From a virus, in IMG/VR virus record IMGVR_UViG_3300046387_000051, positions 1-30,649 of that record: a stretch of DNA of 30,649 bases; one strand, 5' to 3'. Below, one piece after another: positions 1,657 through 26,310 of the stretch (the stretch's first letter is position 1; each line of letters opens with the position of its first letter). The position numbers and the translations under genes were made by a program. Below the pieces are notes generated by a model. The model had not been told where the DNA came from. It did no database searches and saw nothing but the letters and a program-made list of their open reading frames with translations.

Positions 1657-3135
1657 ATGACAAACCTCGATATTATTCCCGAAGAAAAACTTCGTGAAAT
1701 CCTCTTGTTACAGGAAGCGCAAGCAACCCTAACCAAGCGTGAAGAAGCCAAGGACAAGTTCATGTCTTTTGCTCACCATGTGTATGACGACTTTATTGAG
1801 GGGAACCACCACAGAGTTATATCAGAAAAACTTGAGCTTGTTGCACAGGGTAAGTTGAAACGACTGATCATTAACATGCCACCGCGTCACTCCAAATCTG
1901 AATTAGCATCCTATTTGATGCCTGCATGGTTTTTGGGAAGGAACCCTAGACTGAAAATTATTCAGGCAACGATGAACACGGAACTAGCCACCCGTTTTGG
2001 TAGGAAAGTGCGTGACTTGATTGCTGACCCCATATACACGGAAATATTTCCAGAAACCGACCTCAAACAAGACAGTCAAGCTGCTGGTAGATGGGAGACA
2101 AGTAAGAAGGGCGAATACTTTGCGGCGGGTGTTGGTGCGGCGATGACGGGTCGCGGTGCAGATTTGTTGATTATCGATGACCCACACTCGGAACAAGACG
2201 CATTATCCTCGACTGCATATGACCATACCTATGAATGGTACACCTCTGGGCCTCGTCAGCGGCTCCAGCCTGGTGGTTCGATCATCATTGTTCAGACAAG
2301 GTGGTCAAAAAAGGACTTAACGGGCCGGTTACTGACCGAACAGATGAAAGACACCATGTCTGATCAGTGGGAATTGATAGAATTTCCTGCAATTATGCCA
2401 TCGGGGAACCCTGTGTGGCCTGAATTTTGGAACAAGGACGAGTTACTGTCGGTAAAAGCGTCTTTGTCCCCTTCTAAATGGAACGCGCAGTGGCAACAAA
2501 ATCCTACATCCGAAGAAACTGCCATGGTCAAGCGCGAATGGTGGCAGACTTGGACAAAAAAGAAGATTCCACGGCTCAAGTACATACTTCAGAGTTACGA
2601 TACGGCGTTTTCCAAGAAAGAAACGGCTGACTACACGGCGATTACGACGTGGGGCATCTTTGATCCTGATGAGGACAACACGGAACACATCATTTTGTTG
2701 GATGCAATGAAGGGTCGGTACAATTTCCCCGAACTGAAGGAAGTTGCAGCGGAACAGCATGAGTATTGGGAACCGGACATGGTGTTGATTGAGGCGAAAG
2801 CGTCGGGTCAGCCGCTGGCAGATGAGCTACTCAGGATTGATATACCTGTTTTGACGTATTCACCGGGCAAAGCCAAGGGCCGTGGTGGTGTTGACAAGGT
2901 TACTCGTATGCACATGGTTGCTCCACTGTTTGAGGCTGGTCGAGTCTGGGCACCGGAGGAGACTTTTGCGGAGGATGTTATTGAAGAAGTTGCTTCTTTT
3001 CCAAAGGGCGACTACGATGACTACTGTGACAGCATGACGATGGCACTTATTAGATTTAGGCAGGGCGGCTTTGCGTCGTTAGAAGAAGATGAGGAAGATC
3101 CGTACTACAGGCGCAAGAAATATGAGTATTACTGA
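1657..3135 (+). CDS. terL: Terminase large subunit (ATPase and nuclease)
   Basis: The 492-residue packaging motor cuts concatemeric phage DNA and pumps it through the portal into the prohead. Visible motifs are the Walker-A-like MPPRHSKS (residues 74-81), Walker B LLIIDD (170-175), a motif-III-like QTRWSKKDLTGR (213-224), and an RNase-H-type nuclease with acidic residues in SYDTAF (D315), VLIEAKASG (E379) and DDYCDSM (D458). Length and motif order match the large-terminase group having the MPPRHSKS P-loop variant. The ATG at 1657 is preferred over an in-frame TTG at 1651, although neither has a clear ribosome binding site. Its stop overlaps the next start (TGATG). No small terminase subunit is adjacent. 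Confidence 0.97.
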   Translation: MTNLDIIPEEKLREILLLQEAQATLTKREEAKDKFMSFAHHVYDDFIEGNHHRVISEKLELVAQGKLKRLIINMPPRHSKSELASYLMPAWFLGRNPRLKIIQATMNTELATRFGRKVRDLIADPIYTEIFPETDLKQDSQAAGRWETSKKGEYFAAGVGAAMTGRGADLLIIDDPHSEQDALSSTAYDHTYEWYTSGPRQRLQPGGSIIIVQTRWSKKDLTGRLLTEQMKDTMSDQWELIEFPAIMPSGNPVWPEFWNKDELLSVKASLSPSKWNAQWQQNPTSEETAMVKREWWQTWTKKKIPRLKYILQSYDTAFSKKETADYTAITTWGIFDPDEDNTEHIILLDAMKGRYNFPELKEVAAEQHEYWEPDMVLIEAKASGQPLADELLRIDIPVLTYSPGKAKGRGGVDKVTRMHMVAPLFEAGRVWAPEETFAEDVIEEVASFPKGDYDDYCDSMTMALIRFRQGGFASLEEDEEDPYYRRKKYEYY

Positions 3136-7647: not shown

Positions 7648-7856
7648 ACCTTATTGACTTCGTAAGCAAATACCGCAAAACTCTGAACAATCGCGTAAGT
7701 GATTTATCGATTACTGTTTCTAGCGGGTCTATAAAAGACATGGAACAGTACCGCAGCATCGTAGGTGAGATCCAGGGACTCTCAACTGCACTAGATGAAT
7801 TAAGTTCCCTGCTAAAAGGTTTTGATACAGATGACGAAGACGTTACTGATTCCTGA
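7644..7856 (+). CDS. Small helical protein upstream of co-chaperonin gene
   Basis: The 70-residue protein is acidic and predicted helical, with the heptad-like segment SIVGEIQGLSTALDELSSLL. It starts at an ATGA overlap with the previous stop and overlaps the following co-chaperonin start by 26 bases, so all three genes are probably translated as a coupled set. Its N-terminus (MNLIDFVSKYRKTLNNRV) shows no signal peptide. The family is not recognised. Small helical proteins at this place, ahead of scaffold and capsid, may be assembly factors, but that is an inference from position only. Confidence 0.75.
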   Translation: MNLIDFVSKYRKTLNNRVSDLSITVSSGSIKDMEQYRSIVGEIQGLSTALDELSSLLKGFDTDDEDVTDS

Positions 7857-8247
7857 CTACGCAAAAGCGGCGATAGAAGCAAAAAAGAAAGCCGAATCCA
7901 AACAGAAAGCCATGGAAAGAGTACCGCAGCCCACGGGTTGGCGTTTACTTGTTATGCCATATCGAGGGCGCGAAAAGACGGATGGGGGTATTTATATCCC
8001 AGATGCTGTTGCGGATCGTGAGGCACTTGCAACTGTGGTCGCATATGTCGTGAAAGTCGGGCCGCTTGCCTACAAAGATTCTGATAAATTTGGTGCAGAT
8101 ATGGAGCCTTGGTGCAAAGAAGGCGACTGGGTTTGCATTGGTCGATACGCCGGTTCTCGCTTCAAGCTAGAGGACGGTGAGGTTCGTATAATTAACGACG
8201 ATGAAGTAATCGCTACGATTATAGATCCAGAAGACATAAAAATTTAG
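7831..8247 (+). CDS. GroES-like co-chaperonin
   Basis: The 138-residue protein has residues 36-138 resembling the Cpn10 fold: GWRLLVMPYRGREKTDGGIY carries the mobile-loop element (GGIYI in place of GGIVL), then VVAYVVKVGPLA, the turn CKEGDWVCIGRYAG, the roof-like loop GSRFKLEDGEVRI and a final strand DEVIATI. Residues 1-35 form an extra Lys-rich helix. Phage co-chaperonins cap host GroEL, often to help fold the major capsid protein; the place just before scaffold and capsid fits. The ATG at 7831 is preferred to a TTG at 7822. It lacks an obviously long mobile loop, unlike T4 gp31. Confidence 0.85.
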   Translation: MTKTLLIPDYAKAAIEAKKKAESKQKAMERVPQPTGWRLLVMPYRGREKTDGGIYIPDAVADREALATVVAYVVKVGPLAYKDSDKFGADMEPWCKEGDWVCIGRYAGSRFKLEDGEVRIINDDEVIATIIDPEDIKI

Positions 8248-12329: not shown

Positions 12330-13034
12330 ATGGTTCTTCAGACTTCCGGTTCTGCGATAAAGTTTAGTGAGATACAGGACGAGTTTGGCGGCACAAACCC
12401 GATATCGCTTTCGGAGTACTACATTGGCGGGGACAATGTTCCCGCCACTATCACAAGTTCAGGTGTTGCGCCGGGTGCATTTACAGCCTATACGGGCGGG
12501 GGCGTTTTTGTCTTACCATTTGTCTTTGGGCCCATCACACATTTTAAGCAGGTGATAACTAAATCGTTTACCTTTACTGAAGGCGGTTCTGGTTCATCGT
12601 TTTTATCGACACTGCTTGCTTCTAATCCTACATACACTTATACACTGGCATTCGACGCCGCAGATCTTTTAGCCTCGTCCGCCATACTTACTAGTGCGTC
12701 CACGAATGGAACGGCTCTTTTTCCGGGCAGTGTAAACGGTGGGGCAACCAATTCTGTTACTTACAAAGCAGCTTATGAAGCGTCCCTCAATGCAGCAAAC
12801 GAAGTCATAATTACATCGGGAGGCTTCGACTATCAGATTGGATCTAACGTTTTTGCTAGTCGCATAACGCCAATTCTTTTTTCGGCTGGCACAACAGCCG
12901 AGGTAATAGCAAGTGATTTTTCACAAGTTCGCAGAAGAACTACGGGCACACAAGTCACCAGCAATGTAAATCCAAATGTCCCAGCAAATGGCGAAGTGTC
13001 CATATCTGATTACTACGGTGGTCGAGATGACTAG
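12330..13034 (+). CDS. Structural protein with paired YYxGG motifs
   Basis: The 234-residue protein begins SGSAIKFSEIQDEFGGTNPI followed by SLSEYYIGG, a motif widespread in phage virion and tail proteins, and ends with GEVSISDYYGGRDD, a second copy of the same SxS(E/D)YYxGG signature. The interior is Ser/Thr-rich and beta-rich. The paired motifs at both ends suggest a peptide that docks on the same partner twice or bridges subunits. CAGGGGGAC precedes the ATG. Its stop overlaps the next gene. The exact particle position is unknown. Confidence 0.8.
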   Translation: MVLQTSGSAIKFSEIQDEFGGTNPISLSEYYIGGDNVPATITSSGVAPGAFTAYTGGGVFVLPFVFGPITHFKQVITKSFTFTEGGSGSSFLSTLLASNPTYTYTLAFDAADLLASSAILTSASTNGTALFPGSVNGGATNSVTYKAAYEASLNAANEVIITSGGFDYQIGSNVFASRITPILFSAGTTAEVIASDFSQVRRRTTGTQVTSNVNPNVPANGEVSISDYYGGRDD

Positions 13035-13311
13035 AAAAGCCAGCAAGATGCCAGCCCGAAATAAAAAAAACTTCAGGTCAACCAAGGCCGGAGCAGGCAT
13101 GACTAAGAAAGGCGTGGCTGCATACCGTCGTATGAACCCCGGCAGTAAGCTGAAGACTGCTGTAACAGGCAAAGTCAAAAAGGGTAGCGCGGCGGCAAAG
13201 CGTAGAAAATCATTCTGCGCTCGTTCTGCTGGTCAGATGAAGAAGTTTCCAAAGGCCGCGAAGAATCCTAACAGCAGATTGCGTCAGGCAAGAAGACGGT
13301 GGAAGTGTTGA
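13027..13311 (+). CDS. Small basic protein, DUF6321-like
   Basis: The 94-residue protein is rich in Lys, Arg and Ala. It includes GMTKKGVAAYRRMNPGSKLK, then AAKRRKSFCARSAGQMKK and the end NPNSRLRQARRRWKC. The RRKSFCARSxGQ plus RRRWxC pattern matches small proteins of phages and large algal viruses, which I recall as DUF6321; the family name is from memory. The ATG at 13027 overlaps the preceding stop region; an in-frame upstream ATG at 12976 would lie inside the preceding gene. A nucleic-acid-binding virion or packaging peptide is plausible. Confidence 0.8.
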   Translation: MTRKASKMPARNKKNFRSTKAGAGMTKKGVAAYRRMNPGSKLKTAVTGKVKKGSAAAKRRKSFCARSAGQMKKFPKAAKNPNSRLRQARRRWKC

Positions 13312-13312
13312 C

Positions 13313-13513
13313 ATGAAAATTCAGGAAGCAGTAGCCCGTATAGAAAAGCACGAAGCAGAATGTTCTCTTCGATACGAAGAGATACAACGTCGGCTCGAAG
13401 ACGGTAAACAAAAAATGGATAAGCTGGATGCCAACATCTCAGCAAACTTCAAATATCTGGTGGGTATCATCATAGCAACTGCGTTACTGCCTTTTGTTGA
13501 GAAGCTGTTCTGA
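13313..13513 (+). CDS. Coiled-coil protein with C-terminal membrane anchor, holin/XhlA-like
   Basis: The 66-residue protein has residues 1-42 as a charged coiled coil (VARIEKHEAECSLRYEEIQR) and residues 46-63 as a transmembrane segment (FKYLVGIIIATALLPFVE). This is the layout of haemolysin-XhlA-like or small holin-associated phage proteins. It sits among basic peptides rather than a lysis cassette. It starts one base after the previous stop and its own stop overlaps the next ATG (TGATG). A lysis accessory function is possible but not shown. Confidence 0.78.
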   Translation: MKIQEAVARIEKHEAECSLRYEEIQRRLEDGKQKMDKLDANISANFKYLVGIIIATALLPFVEKLF

Positions 13514-13668
13514 TGACGATCTCTAGGTCGAGCATACCGAAGCAGATCACCAAGCCTCCACAGAAAAGAAAATGGAGCGCAAAACGCAAGCGTAGTATAA
13601 ACTGTAAGAAGCCCAGAGGCTTTTCAGAGCGTGCCCATTGTGCAGGACGCAGGAAAAGGAAGAAATGA
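13513..13668 (+). CDS. Tiny basic Cys-containing protein (51 aa)
   Basis: Read from the junction. It begins MTISRSSIPKQITKPPQKRK and ends CKKPRGFSERAHCAGRRKRK then K. The C-K-K-P-R-G-F-S-E-R-A-H-C core recurs in tiny phage proteins next to other basic peptides. Its ATG overlaps the previous stop and it ends one base before the next ATG. The Cys pair (residues 31 and 43) and His42 might hold a metal. Probable nucleic-acid-binding or structural peptide; no function is known to me. Confidence 0.72.
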   Translation: MTISRSSIPKQITKPPQKRKWSAKRKRSINCKKPRGFSERAHCAGRRKRKK

Positions 13669-13669
13669 G

Positions 13670-13897
13670 ATGTCAAAAAAGGATGCTTGTTACCACAAAG
13701 TCAAGGCACGTTATCGTGTCTTTCCGAGTGCTTACGCTTCCGGTGCGATTGCCAAGTGCAGAAAAGTCGGAGCTAAAAACTGGGGAAATAAAAGCAAGAG
13801 TAAAGCAGTTAGAAAAGCAGATGGAGGAATGGTGCGCGGAGCTTCAAAGTTCAGAGACGGACAGAAGTACCGCTATAAAACCACCAAGATCTACTGA
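13670..13897 (+). CDS. Small basic protein, KDACYHKVK family
   Basis: The 75-residue protein starts MSKKDACYHKVKARYRVFPS and continues AYASGAIAKCRKVGAKNWGN. This signature is strongly conserved in small proteins of marine phages and giant viruses. Residues 45-75 are a basic tail (KADGGMVRGASKFRDGQKYR). The ATG at 13670 is chosen because it falls one base after the previous stop and begins the conserved block; an in-frame ATG at 13631 lies inside the previous gene. Function unknown; DNA condensation or a virion role is inferred from composition. Confidence 0.82.
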   Translation: MSKKDACYHKVKARYRVFPSAYASGAIAKCRKVGAKNWGNKSKSKAVRKADGGMVRGASKFRDGQKYRYKTTKIY

Positions 13898-14181
13898 TGC
13901 CAGCAGTAAGAAAAACTAAAAAAGGGTTAGCCCTCAAACGCTGGTTCAAAGAGGACTGGAAAGACGTTCGCACGGGCAAGAAGTGTGGACGCGGAAAGAG
14001 CGAGAAGAGGGGCACACCGTATTGTCGCCCGTCTAAACGAGTCTCTTCTAAGACACCCAAGACTACTAAAGAAATGACAGCCGCTGAGAAGCGCAGTAGA
14101 GTTAGTCAAAAGAAACGGCTGGGACAACCAGCTGGTAAACCTCGTAGAGTCAAAGCAGTTAGAAGGAGGAAGACGAAATGA
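13897..14181 (+). CDS. Small basic protein, DUF5872-like
   Basis: The 94-residue protein has the core GLALKRWFKEDWKDVRTGKK followed by CGRGKSEKRGTPYCRPSKRV and SSKTPKT. The W-x-D-V...CGR...PYCRPSKRVSSKTPKT pattern is one I know from DUF5872-type proteins of phages and giant viruses; the family number is from memory. Two Cys flank a basic loop. The C-terminus is nearly all Lys, Arg and Gln. It overlaps the previous stop (TGATG) and its own stop overlaps the next ATG (ATGA). Confidence 0.82.
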   Translation: MPAVRKTKKGLALKRWFKEDWKDVRTGKKCGRGKSEKRGTPYCRPSKRVSSKTPKTTKEMTAAEKRSRVSQKKRLGQPAGKPRRVKAVRRRKTK

Positions 14182-14405
14182 TTAAAAAGCGTAAAGGCAT
14201 GAAAAAAGGCGGCGTGATGAAATCCAAAGGTTACCGTCGTGGCGGTGCCGTTGGTATGAAGTCTAAAGGTATGAAACGCGGTGGTGCTGTTGGTATGAAA
14301 TCCAAAGGCATGAAGCGTGGCGGTGCCGCTAAAAAACCCACAATGACACTGGCTCAAATTAGAGCAGCAGCCAAGAAAAAAGGTTATAAGCTCACTAAAG
14401 CGTAA
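14178..14405 (+). CDS. Lys/Gly-rich repeat protein
   Basis: The 75-residue protein is made largely of three tandem 13-residue repeats (MKSKGMKRGGAVG type, residues 14-52), followed by a helical end (LAQIRAAAKKKGYKLTKA). It is strongly basic with no acidic residues in the repeat. Such a peptide would bind nucleic acid or an acidic surface. The preceding GGAGGAAGACGAA is a strong ribosome binding site. It is the last of the basic cluster and its stop overlaps the next gene (TAATG). Confidence 0.8.
   Translation: MIKKRKGMKKGGVMKSKGYRRGGAVGMKSKGMKRGGAVGMKSKGMKRGGAAKKPTMTLAQIRAAAKKKGYKLTKA
14217..14333 (+). repeat. Three tandem 39-bp coding repeats
   Basis: Three in-frame 39-bp units encode MKSKG(Y/M)(R/K)RGGA(V/A)(G/K). 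The units differ at synonymous positions (for example AAGTCTAAAGG versus AAATCCAAAGG), so the repeat is old or kept at the peptide level. Confidence 0.85.
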
Positions 14406-19610: not shown

Positions 19611-19961
19611 ATGGCTAATATATTCAAGGTAAAAACACATGCGGCAATGCCTGCTTCGGCTGGGACTTTGGAGACATTGTATACCTGCCCCGGCTCTACA
19701 ACTTCTGTTGTCCTTGGACTGATACTTTGTAACGTAGGCACAGCACAACACACTGTAGACGTACAGTTGGTTTCAGATACCAGTGACACAGAAACAAACG
19801 CAACAGTAAAGCTGTTGGAGAATGTACCGATACCCGCAGGTTCATCACTAGAGGTACTGTCAGGCGGCAAGGTCGTAGTACAGGCCACGGACGTTATAAA
19901 GATTGACGCAGACACGGCGGCAAAGATTGATGCGACACTGAGTATTATGGAGATTACCTGA
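19611..19961 (+). CDS. Small beta-rich virion protein
   Basis: The 116-residue protein starts MANIFKVKTHAAMPASAGTL, then LYTCPGSTTSVVLGLILCNV, TVDVQLVSD and a closing region (ENVPIPAGSSLEVLSGGKVV). The MANIFK...LYT-x-P-x-x-x-x-x-VVLGL pattern recurs in small structural proteins of marine phages near fibre genes. It appears to be one beta-sandwich. It lies three bases after the long fibre and overlaps the next fibre (TGATGG). It may cap or attach the fibre. Confidence 0.8.
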   Translation: MANIFKVKTHAAMPASAGTLETLYTCPGSTTSVVLGLILCNVGTAQHTVDVQLVSDTSDTETNATVKLLENVPIPAGSSLEVLSGGKVVVQATDVIKIDADTAAKIDATLSIMEIT

Positions 19962-21088
19962 TGGGTTATACTGGTAAGAAGCCAACCAATGTAGTCGATG
20001 TCAGCGAAACGCAATCACTTACGGTTGATGGCGACCTGACAATCTCTGACAAAATTGTCCACTCTGGGGATACAAATACTGCAATTAGATTTGCGGCGGC
20101 AGATACGGTAACTATCGAAACGGCTGGAAGCGAAAGGGTAAGGGTCGATAGCAATGGTCAACTTGGGATAGGCGTAACTTCTGTAGACACGGCACTTCAT
20201 GTAAAATCTGCTAATGACACGGTTGCAATCATTGAAAGTAGTGATGCTACATCAAAACTGCAAATTAAAGATAGTGATAGCACCAATGGTGCAAGTCTAG
20301 CTGTAACAAACGAAATATTTAATATTCAAGTTAACGGGTCCGAGCGTATGCGTATCGACAGTTCAGGCAATGTACAAATCGGCTCAACCAATAGTGGTGT
20401 TGCAGGTACGCTTGATGTTTCTGTAGGTAGCACTTCTTCTTCGGGTGGAATTACCTTGTTCTCACCTACTAATGGCACACATTCTCTTGGTTTTGCAGAT
20501 GGCACATCAGGCACTGACCGATATAGAGGCTATTTAGAATATCAACACGCTAGTGATGCAATGACTTTTGGGGTTCAAGCTAGTGAGGCTATGAGGATAG
20601 ACTCGTCTCCTCAAGTTTTAATGGGTAAAACAGTAGCAAATCTTACGACTGCTGGAAGCCTTCAAGCCGCTAATGCAACATCAGATGGTTCTCCAGCTTA
20701 TTTCTACATGATTAAAACTTTTAGCGGAACAAGAAACGCTTGGTTGAATTACCACTCTGGGACGTATGTTGGCGGTATAAACATGACCAACACTTCCACA
20801 AGTTTTCCAACATCTTCAGATGAGCGTTTAAAAAAGAATATTGTGGATGCTCCGTCTGCGGGAGACAAAATAGATGCAATGCAGGTTCGTAGTTTTAACT
20901 GGAAGGCCGACGACAGCTTTCAAGAATATGGCCTAATCGCTCAAGAACTTGAGCCAGTCTATGATTTGCCAGTTGAGCAACATGACACTGAAGATACCTA
21001 CACTGTAGACTATAGCAAACTGGTTCCAATTTTATTGAAAGAAATTCAAGACTTGCGTAAGCGTGTCGCAACTCTGGAGAATAATTAA
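19961..21088 (+). CDS. Tail fibre with C-terminal S74-type self-cleaving chaperone
   Basis: The 375-residue protein has an N-terminal MGYTGKKPTNVVDVSETQSL anchor, a shaft with three ER(V/M)R(V/I)DS repeats, and a C-terminal intramolecular chaperone (residues 286-375) starting SDERLKKNI and ending with a coiled coil (PILLKEIQDLRKRVATLENN). In the S74 family Ser286 and Lys291 of SDxRxK catalyse cleavage just before the Ser after trimer folding. Both residues are present. A segment near 20048-20110 is nearly duplicated in the fibre gene at 23054. From about 20200 the composition becomes AT-rich. Confidence 0.88.
   Translation: MGYTGKKPTNVVDVSETQSLTVDGDLTISDKIVHSGDTNTAIRFAAADTVTIETAGSERVRVDSNGQLGIGVTSVDTALHVKSANDTVAIIESSDATSKLQIKDSDSTNGASLAVTNEIFNIQVNGSERMRIDSSGNVQIGSTNSGVAGTLDVSVGSTSSSGGITLFSPTNGTHSLGFADGTSGTDRYRGYLEYQHASDAMTFGVQASEAMRIDSSPQVLMGKTVANLTTAGSLQAANATSDGSPAYFYMIKTFSGTRNAWLNYHSGTYVGGINMTNTSTSFPTSSDERLKKNIVDAPSAGDKIDAMQVRSFNWKADDSFQEYGLIAQELEPVYDLPVEQHDTEDTYTVDYSKLVPILLKEIQDLRKRVATLENN
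20048..20110 (+). repeat. Fibre module duplicated in the gene at 23054 (copy 1)
   Basis: This stretch encodes DKIVHSGDTNTAIRFAAADT and flanking residues and is very similar to 23426-23488 (DKIVHTGDTNTAIRFAAADT). DNA differences are mostly at third positions. It is a shared fibre-shaft module that could serve recombination between the two genes. Confidence 0.8.
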
Positions 21089-21436
21089 ATGCGTTTAGCA
21101 GTTAGCGAGATAAAAACTTGGGCTGGAAAAGTCAAGACTTTGGATTCTGACCCTAAAAGCTGGGCTATTTTTGAACGGCAAAAAGCTATTCACAAACATT
21201 TAGACGAACATGGGATGATAAATCCAATAATAATAAACAGCAATAAAGAGTTGCAAGTTGGAGGGTGTCGTTTGCAATATGCAATTTTGAAGAGATGGCA
21301 ATATATAAATGTGATTATTTGCGATGACCCTGTAGAAATTTTAAACCTTCAAGATATGCAAGCCAACTATGAACACACTTTTCTTCCTCAAAATTTAATA
21401 GAAAGACATAAATTAGTAAGCGGAGTAAAAATGTAA
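21089..21436 (+). CDS. ParB/sulfiredoxin-like small protein
   Basis: The 115-residue protein matches the N-terminal ParB fold: AIHKHLDEHGMINPIIINSN (residues 33-52), ELQVGGCRLQYAILKRWQYI (54-73) and NVIICDD (74-80). GGCRLQYA stands where ParB proteins have the CTP-binding GERRxRA box, so it is degenerate, keeping Gly and Arg. There is no helix-turn-helix. The gene is tucked directly between fibre genes with no gap. It is much more AT-rich than the shaft gene upstream: 17 G/C of 60 in 21301-21360, against 32 of 60 in 18421-18480. This suggests recent acquisition. Confidence 0.75.
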   Translation: MRLAVSEIKTWAGKVKTLDSDPKSWAIFERQKAIHKHLDEHGMINPIIINSNKELQVGGCRLQYAILKRWQYINVIICDDPVEILNLQDMQANYEHTFLPQNLIERHKLVSGVKM

Positions 21437-21780
21437 TGGCTAATACTTATGCTTGGGACTTTCCCTCACTAGATGCTGCCCCCACGGAGGGAAGTTTGGC
21501 AGACGTTGTAAAAGTAATTCACTATCGGTTTATTGCTACAAGTGACCAGAACAAACCTGACGGCGACCCGTACACTGTTCAGGCTTACGGTACCGTCAGT
21601 CTTGGCGATGCAAGTGGTGACAGCTTTACAGACTTTAATAGTATTACCAAAGACCAGTGCAAGACTTGGACGCTTTCCGCTTTGGATAAAACAGAAGCAG
21701 AAATGAAGACGCTTATAGACGAACAAATGACCACTTTAATCACGCCGCCTGTGGTCGGCAAAATACCTTCTGGATGGTAA
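21436..21780 (+). CDS. Conserved small tail-region protein (DUF7936-like)
   Basis: The 114-residue protein starts MANTYAWDFPSLDAAPTEGS, then VVKVIHYRFIATSDQ, PYTVQAYGTVSLGDASGD and MKTLIDEQMTTLITPPVVGK. This one-domain beta plan, ending in an IxxxITPPVV motif, matches a small family I recall as DUF7936 in phages of marine bacteria. Its start overlaps the previous stop (TAATGG) and it lies beside fibre genes. It may be a tail-fibre assembly or attachment factor. The family number is from memory and the role is inferred. Confidence 0.72.
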   Translation: MANTYAWDFPSLDAAPTEGSLADVVKVIHYRFIATSDQNKPDGDPYTVQAYGTVSLGDASGDSFTDFNSITKDQCKTWTLSALDKTEAEMKTLIDEQMTTLITPPVVGKIPSGW

Positions 21781-24148: not shown

Positions 24149-24193
24149 CCCGTCTGGAAGTCGGGTCAGACAGTCCAACCATAGGAGATAAAA

Positions 24194-24475
24194 ATGGCAC
24201 TAACTAAAGAATTTGAATATGACTGCGAAGTTCGTGGCGAACACAAAAACGTCCAAGTTCGCAAGGCAACTATCGTGAAGGATGATGGCGTAGAACTTAG
24301 CCGCACCTATCACCGACACGTTCTGCACTGCCGCACGAAGTCTGGTGACACTTGGGGTGACACAGACATTTCAGGCGAGGATGCAACCGTTCAGGCTGTA
24401 TGCAACGCAGTGTGGACTGACAGCGTGAAGTCTGCTTATGAAACATTTATGGATAGTCAAACAGGGCCAGTCTAG
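24194..24475 (+). CDS. Small fibre-cassette protein (93 aa)
   Basis: The protein starts MALTKEFEYDCEVRGEHKNV, then QVRKATIVKDDGVELSRTYH and ends ETFMDSQTGPV. It is a compact, charged beta domain and helix with two Cys-containing strands. Similar small proteins accompany fibre genes in marine phages. ATAGGAGATAAAA gives a strong ribosome binding site after a 45-base gap, which contains only a short ACCCG/CGGGT stem without a U-run. Function unknown, possibly a fibre assembly partner. Confidence 0.75.
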   Translation: MALTKEFEYDCEVRGEHKNVQVRKATIVKDDGVELSRTYHRHVLHCRTKSGDTWGDTDISGEDATVQAVCNAVWTDSVKSAYETFMDSQTGPV

Positions 24476-24906: not shown

Positions 24907-26310
24907 GTGACCACTACAACGACATATAGCAATAATCTAGGCATCACTCTGATCGGTACGGGTCAACAGGCCGGAACTTGGGGCACGACAACTAATACAA
25001 ACTTTGAATTGTTGGATGAAGCAATCAACGGTGTTGTAACTCTAACGCTTTCAGCCACTGGCTCAACAGGTAGTCCTAATGATCAAACGATTGCTGATGG
25101 GACGACTTCTGTACTACGCCATAAATACATTAATGTTACGAGTGGCAGTGATTTGGGCGGCACGGTCTACCTTCGCTTGCTTGATAACGCGGTACAAAAG
25201 ATTGCGATTATCAAAAACAGTCTAGCGGGTAGTCAGTCACTTGTTTTGATCCAAGGTACATATGATGCTGCTAATGTTTTAACTTTAACAAACGGTAAAA
25301 CGGTTGTAGCAAAGTTCGACGGGGGAGGAACAGGGGCAACAGTTGTCAATGCGTTGGGTGATTTGACTATCGACGCTGTAGACAATGTTTCTGTAACAGC
25401 AAACAACAGCACAAACGAAAGCGTATTTCCCGTTTTTGTTGACGGTGCTACCGGGGCACAAGGTTTGGAAAGCGATACCGGACTAAGCTACAACCCAAGC
25501 ACAGGTGTTCTAACGACAACTTCTGTCACTGGTAATCTTACAGGTGCCGTTACGGGTAATGTGACCGGCAACGTTACTGGTAATGTCACTGGTAATGTAA
25601 CCGGCAACACAAGTGGCTCGTCTGGTAGTTGCACGGGTAACGCCGCAACAGCCACTGCGCTTGCAAATGCCCGAACGATTACGTTAGCAGGGGATGTCAC
25701 ATCTAGTGCCGTATCGTTTGATGGCAGTGCAAATATTACAATCACCACCGCACAAGCAAATAACTCTGTTGATTTGACGACGCACACAACAGGGAATTAT
25801 GTAGCTTCTGTAAGTGGTGGCACAGGTGTAACTGTAGATGTTTCTGCTAGTGAAGGAGCAACGCCAACACTAAGTATCGGTCAAGATGTCCAAACTACTG
25901 CAAGTGTTCAGTTTACTTCACTTGGTGTGGGCGCGTCTGCATCTGGTACTGCTGGTGAGATAAGAGCTACGAATGATATTACAGCGTTCTTTTCTTCTGA
26001 TGAACGACTTAAAGAAAACATTTGTTATATCGAAGAAGCTCTAGACAAAGTGGCACAGATTCAGGGCGTGGAGTTTGACTGGACAGACGACTACATGCAG
26101 AACCGTGGGGGTGAAGACGGGCTGTTTGTACGCAAACACGATGTCGGGCTAATCGCCCAGGATGTAGAAAAAGTGTTGCCAGAAGTAGTCGCCAATCGAG
26201 AAGATGGTTACAAGGCCATCAAGTATGATCGTGTAGTAGCTTTGCTGGTCAATGCTGTGCATGAGCTAACAAACAAAGTTGAAGATCTTGAAGCTAAACT
26301 GGAGAGCTAG
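24907..26310 (+). CDS. Second tail fibre with S74-type self-cleaving chaperone
   Basis: The 467-residue protein uses a GTG start with AGAGGATTAGACA before it. It opens with the fibre N-domain NNLGITLIGTGQQAGTWGTT followed by NTNFELLDEAINGVVTLTLS. A shaft with TGNV repeats (about residues 208-235) follows, and it ends with an S74 chaperone from SDERLKENI (Ser364, Lys369; residues 364-467) to ELTNKVEDLEAKLES. It lacks the ERMRIDSS repeats of the gene at 19961, so it is a different fibre with the same maturation strategy. It is followed directly by the nozzle-like gene. Confidence 0.88.
   Translation: MTTTTTYSNNLGITLIGTGQQAGTWGTTTNTNFELLDEAINGVVTLTLSATGSTGSPNDQTIADGTTSVLRHKYINVTSGSDLGGTVYLRLLDNAVQKIAIIKNSLAGSQSLVLIQGTYDAANVLTLTNGKTVVAKFDGGGTGATVVNALGDLTIDAVDNVSVTANNSTNESVFPVFVDGATGAQGLESDTGLSYNPSTGVLTTTSVTGNLTGAVTGNVTGNVTGNVTGNVTGNTSGSSGSCTGNAATATALANARTITLAGDVTSSAVSFDGSANITITTAQANNSVDLTTHTTGNYVASVSGGTGVTVDVSASEGATPTLSIGQDVQTTASVQFTSLGVGASASGTAGEIRATNDITAFFSSDERLKENICYIEEALDKVAQIQGVEFDWTDDYMQNRGGEDGLFVRKHDVGLIAQDVEKVLPEVVANREDGYKAIKYDRVVALLVNAVHELTNKVEDLEAKLES
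25528..25611 (+). repeat. Seven tandem 12-bp (TGNV) coding repeats
   Basis: Seven in-frame 12-bp units encode TGNL, TGAV, TGNV x4 and TGNT. Codons for the same residue vary (GTGACC, GTTACT, GTCACT, GTAACC), so the peptide is conserved more than the DNA. A length-variable shaft repeat. Confidence 0.85.

Follow-up and report, generated by a model that had tools for sequence, protein, structure and literature searches.

A predicted ParB/sulfiredoxin-fold gene at a fixed site behind peptidase S74 tail-fiber genes of phages

RESULTS

Position of the ParB-like gene

The ParB-like open reading frame (ORF) of the window, by which we mean the whole 30,649-base viral record analyzed here, is a real, conserved, and mobile tail-cassette gene whose product is predicted to have the ParB/sulfiredoxin fold and whose function we infer from its fold and neighborhood. 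The ORF encodes 115 amino acids from an ATG start and, as the preliminary description had stated, lies between fiber and tail genes, with a peptidase S74 fiber gene directly upstream and a DUF7936 gene downstream (Table 1). There is no intergenic space around it in the window: the TAA stop of the fiber gene directly abuts the ParB-like ATG in the same frame, and the ParB-like stop overlaps the DUF7936 ATG by one base. When the gene was checked for a promoter or terminator of its own, promoter-like and terminator-like patterns occurred at chance level. The second S74 fiber gene of the window, which served as a comparison locus, has no ParB-like gene behind it. A single TAA separates the same-frame S74 fiber and ParB-like genes both in the window (21086 to 21091) and in contig L002 (5998 to 6003), where readthrough would give a fusion.

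TABLE 1 Coordinates of the ParB-like gene, its neighbors, and the comparison fiber gene in the window
Feature	Position	Strand	Evidence
ParB-like gene, predicted single domain of ParB/sulfiredoxin fold	21089..21436	+	ORF; fold search; 27 other contigs
Tail-fiber gene with C-terminal peptidase S74 intramolecular chaperone domain	19961..21088	+	Pfam PF13884, E 2.9e-12, residues 286-334
S74 chaperone-domain segment, upstream part of the block common to otherwise different contigs	20798..21088	+	Alignment; homology blocks
DUF7936 small tail-cassette protein	21436..21780	+	Pfam PF25590, E 1.6e-17; relatives
Second S74 fiber gene of the window	24907..26310	+	Pfam PF13884, E 8.1e-16

Scans of IMG/VR that took no account of gene position recovered the ParB-like gene in 27 contigs besides the window: 19 in the first scan, then L023 and L024, and then five by a pattern scan. 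Contig L049, which was first seen in a scan with S74 ends and also appeared in the pattern scan, was counted once. Together with the window, these sequences form 14 groups at 90% DNA identity. An S74 domain was found directly upstream of the ParB-like gene in 26 of the 27 contigs, as in the window, a fixed position that does not support the first proposal of a functionally misplaced gene. Contig L146 starts 7 bases before the ParB-like gene, and the tail of an S74 domain can still be read there. Spacing between the S74 stop and the ParB-like start was measured at 18 loci. The window, L002, and L007 have a spacing of 0, L003, L004, and L016 have one of +15, and the remaining 12 have one of -20 or -17. 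At the overlapping loci, the final S74 codons, read in another frame, encode the conserved MRLK start of the ParB-like protein. On the other side, a DUF7936-like gene was the first ORF found at 24 of the 26 sites with downstream DNA, the window included, and none was found next to the ParB-like gene in L017 and L023; when 10 of these proteins were run against Pfam, eight encoded at ParB-bearing loci and two at empty sites, all were confirmed as DUF7936. The pattern scan also picked up L137, L144, L147, and L148, which carry the same unrelated 245-amino-acid ORF with the string FGGCSLTYA.

Predicted fold and family relationship

The ParB/Srx-type domain first proposed from the sequence was borne out by structure prediction and fold search, which ranked ParB and Noc N-terminal domains first, followed by sulfiredoxin and SerK. 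The window protein, modeled from 6 sequences, reached a pLDDT of 74.3 and matched ParB N-domains with a best E of 9.1e-5. The AlphaFold2 model of its 103-amino-acid homolog from L002, built from 17 sequences, reached a pLDDT of 92.7 and a pTM of 0.84. Foldseek comparison of the L002 model with the PDB gave a pNOB8-like ParB-N (6.4e-5), Noc (1.1e-4), and ParB (3.1e-4) and next Arabidopsis sulfiredoxin (2.8e-3) and SerK (2.9e-2). With VIA-align, the same model gave Z scores of 9.0 for ParB-N (rmsd 3.3, 96 residues aligned), 9.0 for Myxococcus xanthus ParB (rmsd 3.9, 88 aligned), 8.3 for sulfiredoxin 6ky4 (rmsd 2.9, 72 aligned), and 7.3 for SerK (rmsd 3.2, 80 aligned).

Sequence profiles gave more distant matches. 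The window ORF alone had no Pfam match and only weak ParB matches in PHROG (best E, 0.0011). The Pfam ParB_N profile (PF02195) matched 16 of 17 family members at E values up to 1, with a best E of 3.9e-6; its curated cutoff is 26.3 bits, and L002 scored 21.0 bits. Most members also showed weak sequence matches to the ParB domains of phage DNA methyltransferases (phrog_498 and PADLOC MTase_II), and the family has no methylase domain and lies in a different operon. No close relative was seen in the cultured phage records searched, since the window protein had no match there at E 0.01 and none of the 40 records returned for L002 at E values up to 10 reached 80% coverage. With regard to a bacterial origin, a pattern scan of genome contigs returned 41 stretches, none of them a relative.

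Homology to ParB_N, as well as library entries labeled, for instance, "ParB-like partition nuclease," would fit a ParB-type DNA partition protein or a nuclease acting on phage DNA. We consider this very improbable given the protein itself: family members are 103 to 115 amino acids long and comprise one domain, the model stops with the fold, and both a helix-turn-helix DNA-binding domain (whose absence had been predicted correctly) and a C-terminal dimerization domain are missing, with zero residues beyond the fold. The position in a tail operon also argues against it, as does the lack of a Pfam nuclease domain match among family members, and the nuclease role once suggested for the gene found no support. 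Compared with the N-terminal domain of ParB and Noc, the family is alike in fold, in a GxxR motif, and in an HGMxNPI stretch that aligns to ParB, but it lacks the helix-turn-helix and dimerization domains and has GGCR in place of GERR.

The P motif and its invariant cysteine

The phosphate-binding P motif of nucleotide binding by the ParB fold is defined as GxxR in the passages of PMC12704722 concerned. In the window this motif is G58-G59-C60-R61, encoded at 21260 to 21271. The window and 23 further contigs read GGCR, and L012, L014, and L020 read GECR. GxxR is kept in every sequence that spans the motif, namely the window and 26 other contigs; L007 is cut before it. Because the ParB_N profile aligns GGCR with the GERR of ParB and GGCR fits the published definition, the P motif is intact, and the "degenerate CTP box" of the preliminary description was wrong for this motif. 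An NTP (CTP or ATP)-related role of the predicted fold is plausible.

Cys60 was invariant in all 17 aligned members, which had been found without cysteine as a search criterion, and its position is held by T, G, H, or R in six remote phage ParB-like proteins. The later pattern scan (26 stretches) required cysteine, and its members are thus no evidence of cysteine conservation. A catalytic role of Cys60 is possible. One such role would be that of a sulfiredoxin-like enzyme whose phosphoryl or thiol chemistry would involve Cys60 and might, for example, repair oxidized cysteine of host or tail proteins. The invariant cysteine, the similarity to sulfiredoxin in predicted fold and in size, and an FGGC string common to the family and to the sulfiredoxin motif SFGGCHR (as given in the part of PMC8071185 concerned) would all agree with this reading. 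It is nevertheless improbable in our judgment. The family string at the P motif is (F/V/I)G(G/E)C-R-(L/F), in which the cysteine is followed by R-L instead of the H-R of sulfiredoxin; in an alignment anchored on the arginine of GxxR, the cysteine appears to fall one residue later than in the G-C-H-R of sulfiredoxin, and the GECR of L012 fits the GERR of ParB. A straight sulfiredoxin was rejected, the active-site string being unmatched beyond FGGC.

Composition and selection

The ParB-like ORF has a GC content of 34.2%, against a window mean of 46.4%. Among the 39 genes of the window it ranks lowest in GC (z, -3.6), and in GC3 only two genes rank below it; in a sliding comparison all 348-nucleotide stretches at or below its GC content overlapped the ORF. 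The composition scan thus agreed with the earlier statement that the gene lies in AT-rich DNA: no other stretch of gene size in the window is as rich in AT. The figure of 17 G/C per 60 bases that had been given for it holds for the lines starting at 21180, 21300, and 21360 (16, 17, and 16) but not for those at 21120 and 21240 (28 and 25). Amino acid content combined with the codon use of the window predicts 40.8% GC compared to the 34.5% observed, with none of 5,000 draws as low; amino acid content accounts for about half of the low GC in the window gene. AT-richness as a family trait was rejected: among 28 sequences including the window, the ParB-like gene was below every tested flank in GC in only 22, and its GC content reached 54% in L139.

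The ratio of dN to dS ranged from 0.05 to 0.39 in nine pairs with dS below 1, values that indicate that the gene is under purifying selection. A recent lone insertion was rejected on the basis of this selection together with the division of the family into 14 groups.

Optional presence and mobility of the segment

To learn how S74 relatives are followed, S74 ends, all taken from ParB-bearing loci, were used as queries, and 80 of 406 relatives were kept. Among the 76 with at least 450 bases past the stop, 4 carried a ParB-like gene and 72 did not, which indicates that S74 fibers do not generally need it. S74 is followed directly by DUF7936, with no ParB-like gene, in L025, L026, and, by sequence, also L052; in the latter two, the DUF7936-type gene begins 3 bases after the S74 stop. 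Relatives of DUF7936 at 19 loci likewise had no ParB-like gene, and an S74 gene lay just upstream in most. The proposal that the gene is an acquired moron therefore held in part. It is accessory, with S74 and DUF7936 adjacent in relatives that lack it, and its composition deviates in the window. A self-contained unit is not supported: the start follows or overlaps the fiber stop, the stop overlaps the next start in the window, and promoter and terminator patterns are at chance.

Several comparisons point to recombination at this site. In L003, the 15 bases between the S74 stop and the ParB-like ATG (3079 to 3093) match the 3' end of the L002 S74 gene at 14 positions; the same interval matches at 11 positions in L004 and 8 in L016. 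Of the 709,209 positions scanned in other loci, none gave a 14/15 match with the six-base core kept. We read the L003 stretch as a putative scar of transfer, the relic of another S74 gene end, and the versions in L004 and L016 as probably decayed. Blocks of shared DNA begin at about -170 to -520 bases, and for the majority of pairs this point lies close to where the S74 chaperone domain starts (about -280). In most pairs examined they end at about +300 to +350 (the ParB-like end) or about +660 to +900 (the DUF7936 end or just beyond). The window and L007 share positions -716 to +171 at 96% identity, L007 ending there; L002 and L012 share the ParB-like gene alone; and the window is too distant from L002 and from L016 for a shared block. 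Together with the scar, these blocks show that a segment made up of the S74 chaperone end, the ParB-like gene, and DUF7936 moves between phages. ParB-like identity between L012 and L002 is 82%, and chaperone identity is 47%. Across 17 sequences, divergence of the ParB-like and S74 chaperone sequences was correlated with a Mantel r of 0.31 (p, 0.018), a value that supports tight coevolution weakly, and this explanation was set aside.

Of 21 records checked for backbone genes, namely L026 and 20 of the 27 ParB-bearing contigs, 4 had a window-type terminase and 3 a window-type capsid; many of these records are fragments, and absence of a backbone gene thus says little. The p93 gene of the window (24182 to 24464) is 97.5% identical in DNA to that of L007 (4265 to 4547), with surrounding fiber genes that differ and stand in another order; from this comparison, tail cassettes are apparently shuffled.

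Optional presence with empty sites, the L003 scar, placement behind differing S74 types, the distinct composition in the window, and remote relatives that include ParB domains of phage DNA methylases would all suit a late effector whose target lies inside the infected cell, such as host or competing-phage DNA metabolism or defense, and which is unrelated to the fiber. Such a gene would stay behind S74 genes because fiber cassettes recombine there. Most S74 fibers lack the gene and different S74 types are tolerated, observations that count against a fiber role, and for this reason we regard a hitchhiking effector as a possibility to be taken seriously. It would have to be reconciled with the finding that none of the 27 contigs places the gene elsewhere, even though the searches were position blind, with the lack of room for its own promoter in the window, where promoter patterns are at chance, and with the absence of a helix-turn-helix and of any fused enzyme.

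DISCUSSION

The reading that we favor, at somewhat less than even confidence, is that the ParB-like protein is a late, probably NTP-binding accessory of S74 fiber cassettes, most likely acting in fiber maturation. The analysis shows the gene, its predicted ParB/Srx fold, an intact P motif, a fixed site, optional presence, mobility of the cassette, and purifying selection; that the protein binds NTP, is made late, and acts on the fiber is what we infer from these. With its compact ParB/Srx fold and its complete GxxR, the protein would most likely bind NTP. It would be translated late from the tail-fiber operon, right behind a fiber with a self-cleaving S74 chaperone, and its gene is an optional part of the mobile segment swapped between phages. 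As a cassette-specific accessory, it might help the fiber to fold, to shed the cleaved S74 chaperone, or to attach, with nucleotide binding as the switch or energy source, and a nucleotide-using helper would fit the step of chaperone release. The more specific version, a nucleotide-switched tail-fiber maturation factor that acts together with the self-cleaving S74 chaperone and moves with host-range cassettes, is rather unlikely at present; if true, it would bring a ParB-type NTP switch into virion assembly.

Short single-domain phage proteins of the ParB fold are already known. Those described by Kaljevic et al. (2025; PMC12704722), as single-domain proteins of the ParB-CTPase fold, resemble the present family in their length of about 100 amino acids, in consisting of nearly the ParB fold alone, in phage origin, and in GxxR. 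They differ from it in that the family has a cysteine at position 3 of the P motif and a fixed site behind S74 fiber genes, whereas the passages concerned give no tail-fiber linkage for the short proteins. The same source reports, in the part concerned, that a phage ParB fold fused to DUF1983 binds ATP and that DUF1983 is a domain often located at the C terminus of receptor-binding proteins. This fusion is an independent link of the ParB fold with receptor-binding proteins, although there the two are fused and here a separate gene adjoins the S74 fiber. Apart from this fusion, the titles and abstract beginnings covered in the literature described no tail-fiber-linked ParB-like gene.

With its fixed S74 fiber neighbor, its natural states with and without the gene, and its invariant motif, the family offers a handle on these questions. 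If the link to the fiber is functional, NTP switching would enter fiber maturation. Otherwise, the gene would mark a recombination point of fiber cassettes and so bear on the exchange of host-range genes between phages.

The plus strand of the window carries a terminase gene, a large portal-like gene, a capsid gene, and tail genes; the labels "portal-like" and "capsid" are our reading of sequence, size, and gene order. Among phage records, the terminase is closest to those of 023Pt_psg01 (59.6%), Pelagibacter phage HTVC027P (57.2%), and Phage DSL-LC04 (60.6%). The ORF at 7825 to 8247 resembles what we take to be a GroES-type co-chaperonin, and a GroES is annotated in the structural region of HTVC027P. 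Positions 12976 to 14405 hold a run of four small ORFs very rich in Lys and Arg (111, 88, 94, and 75 amino acids), the last with GMKRGG-type repeats.
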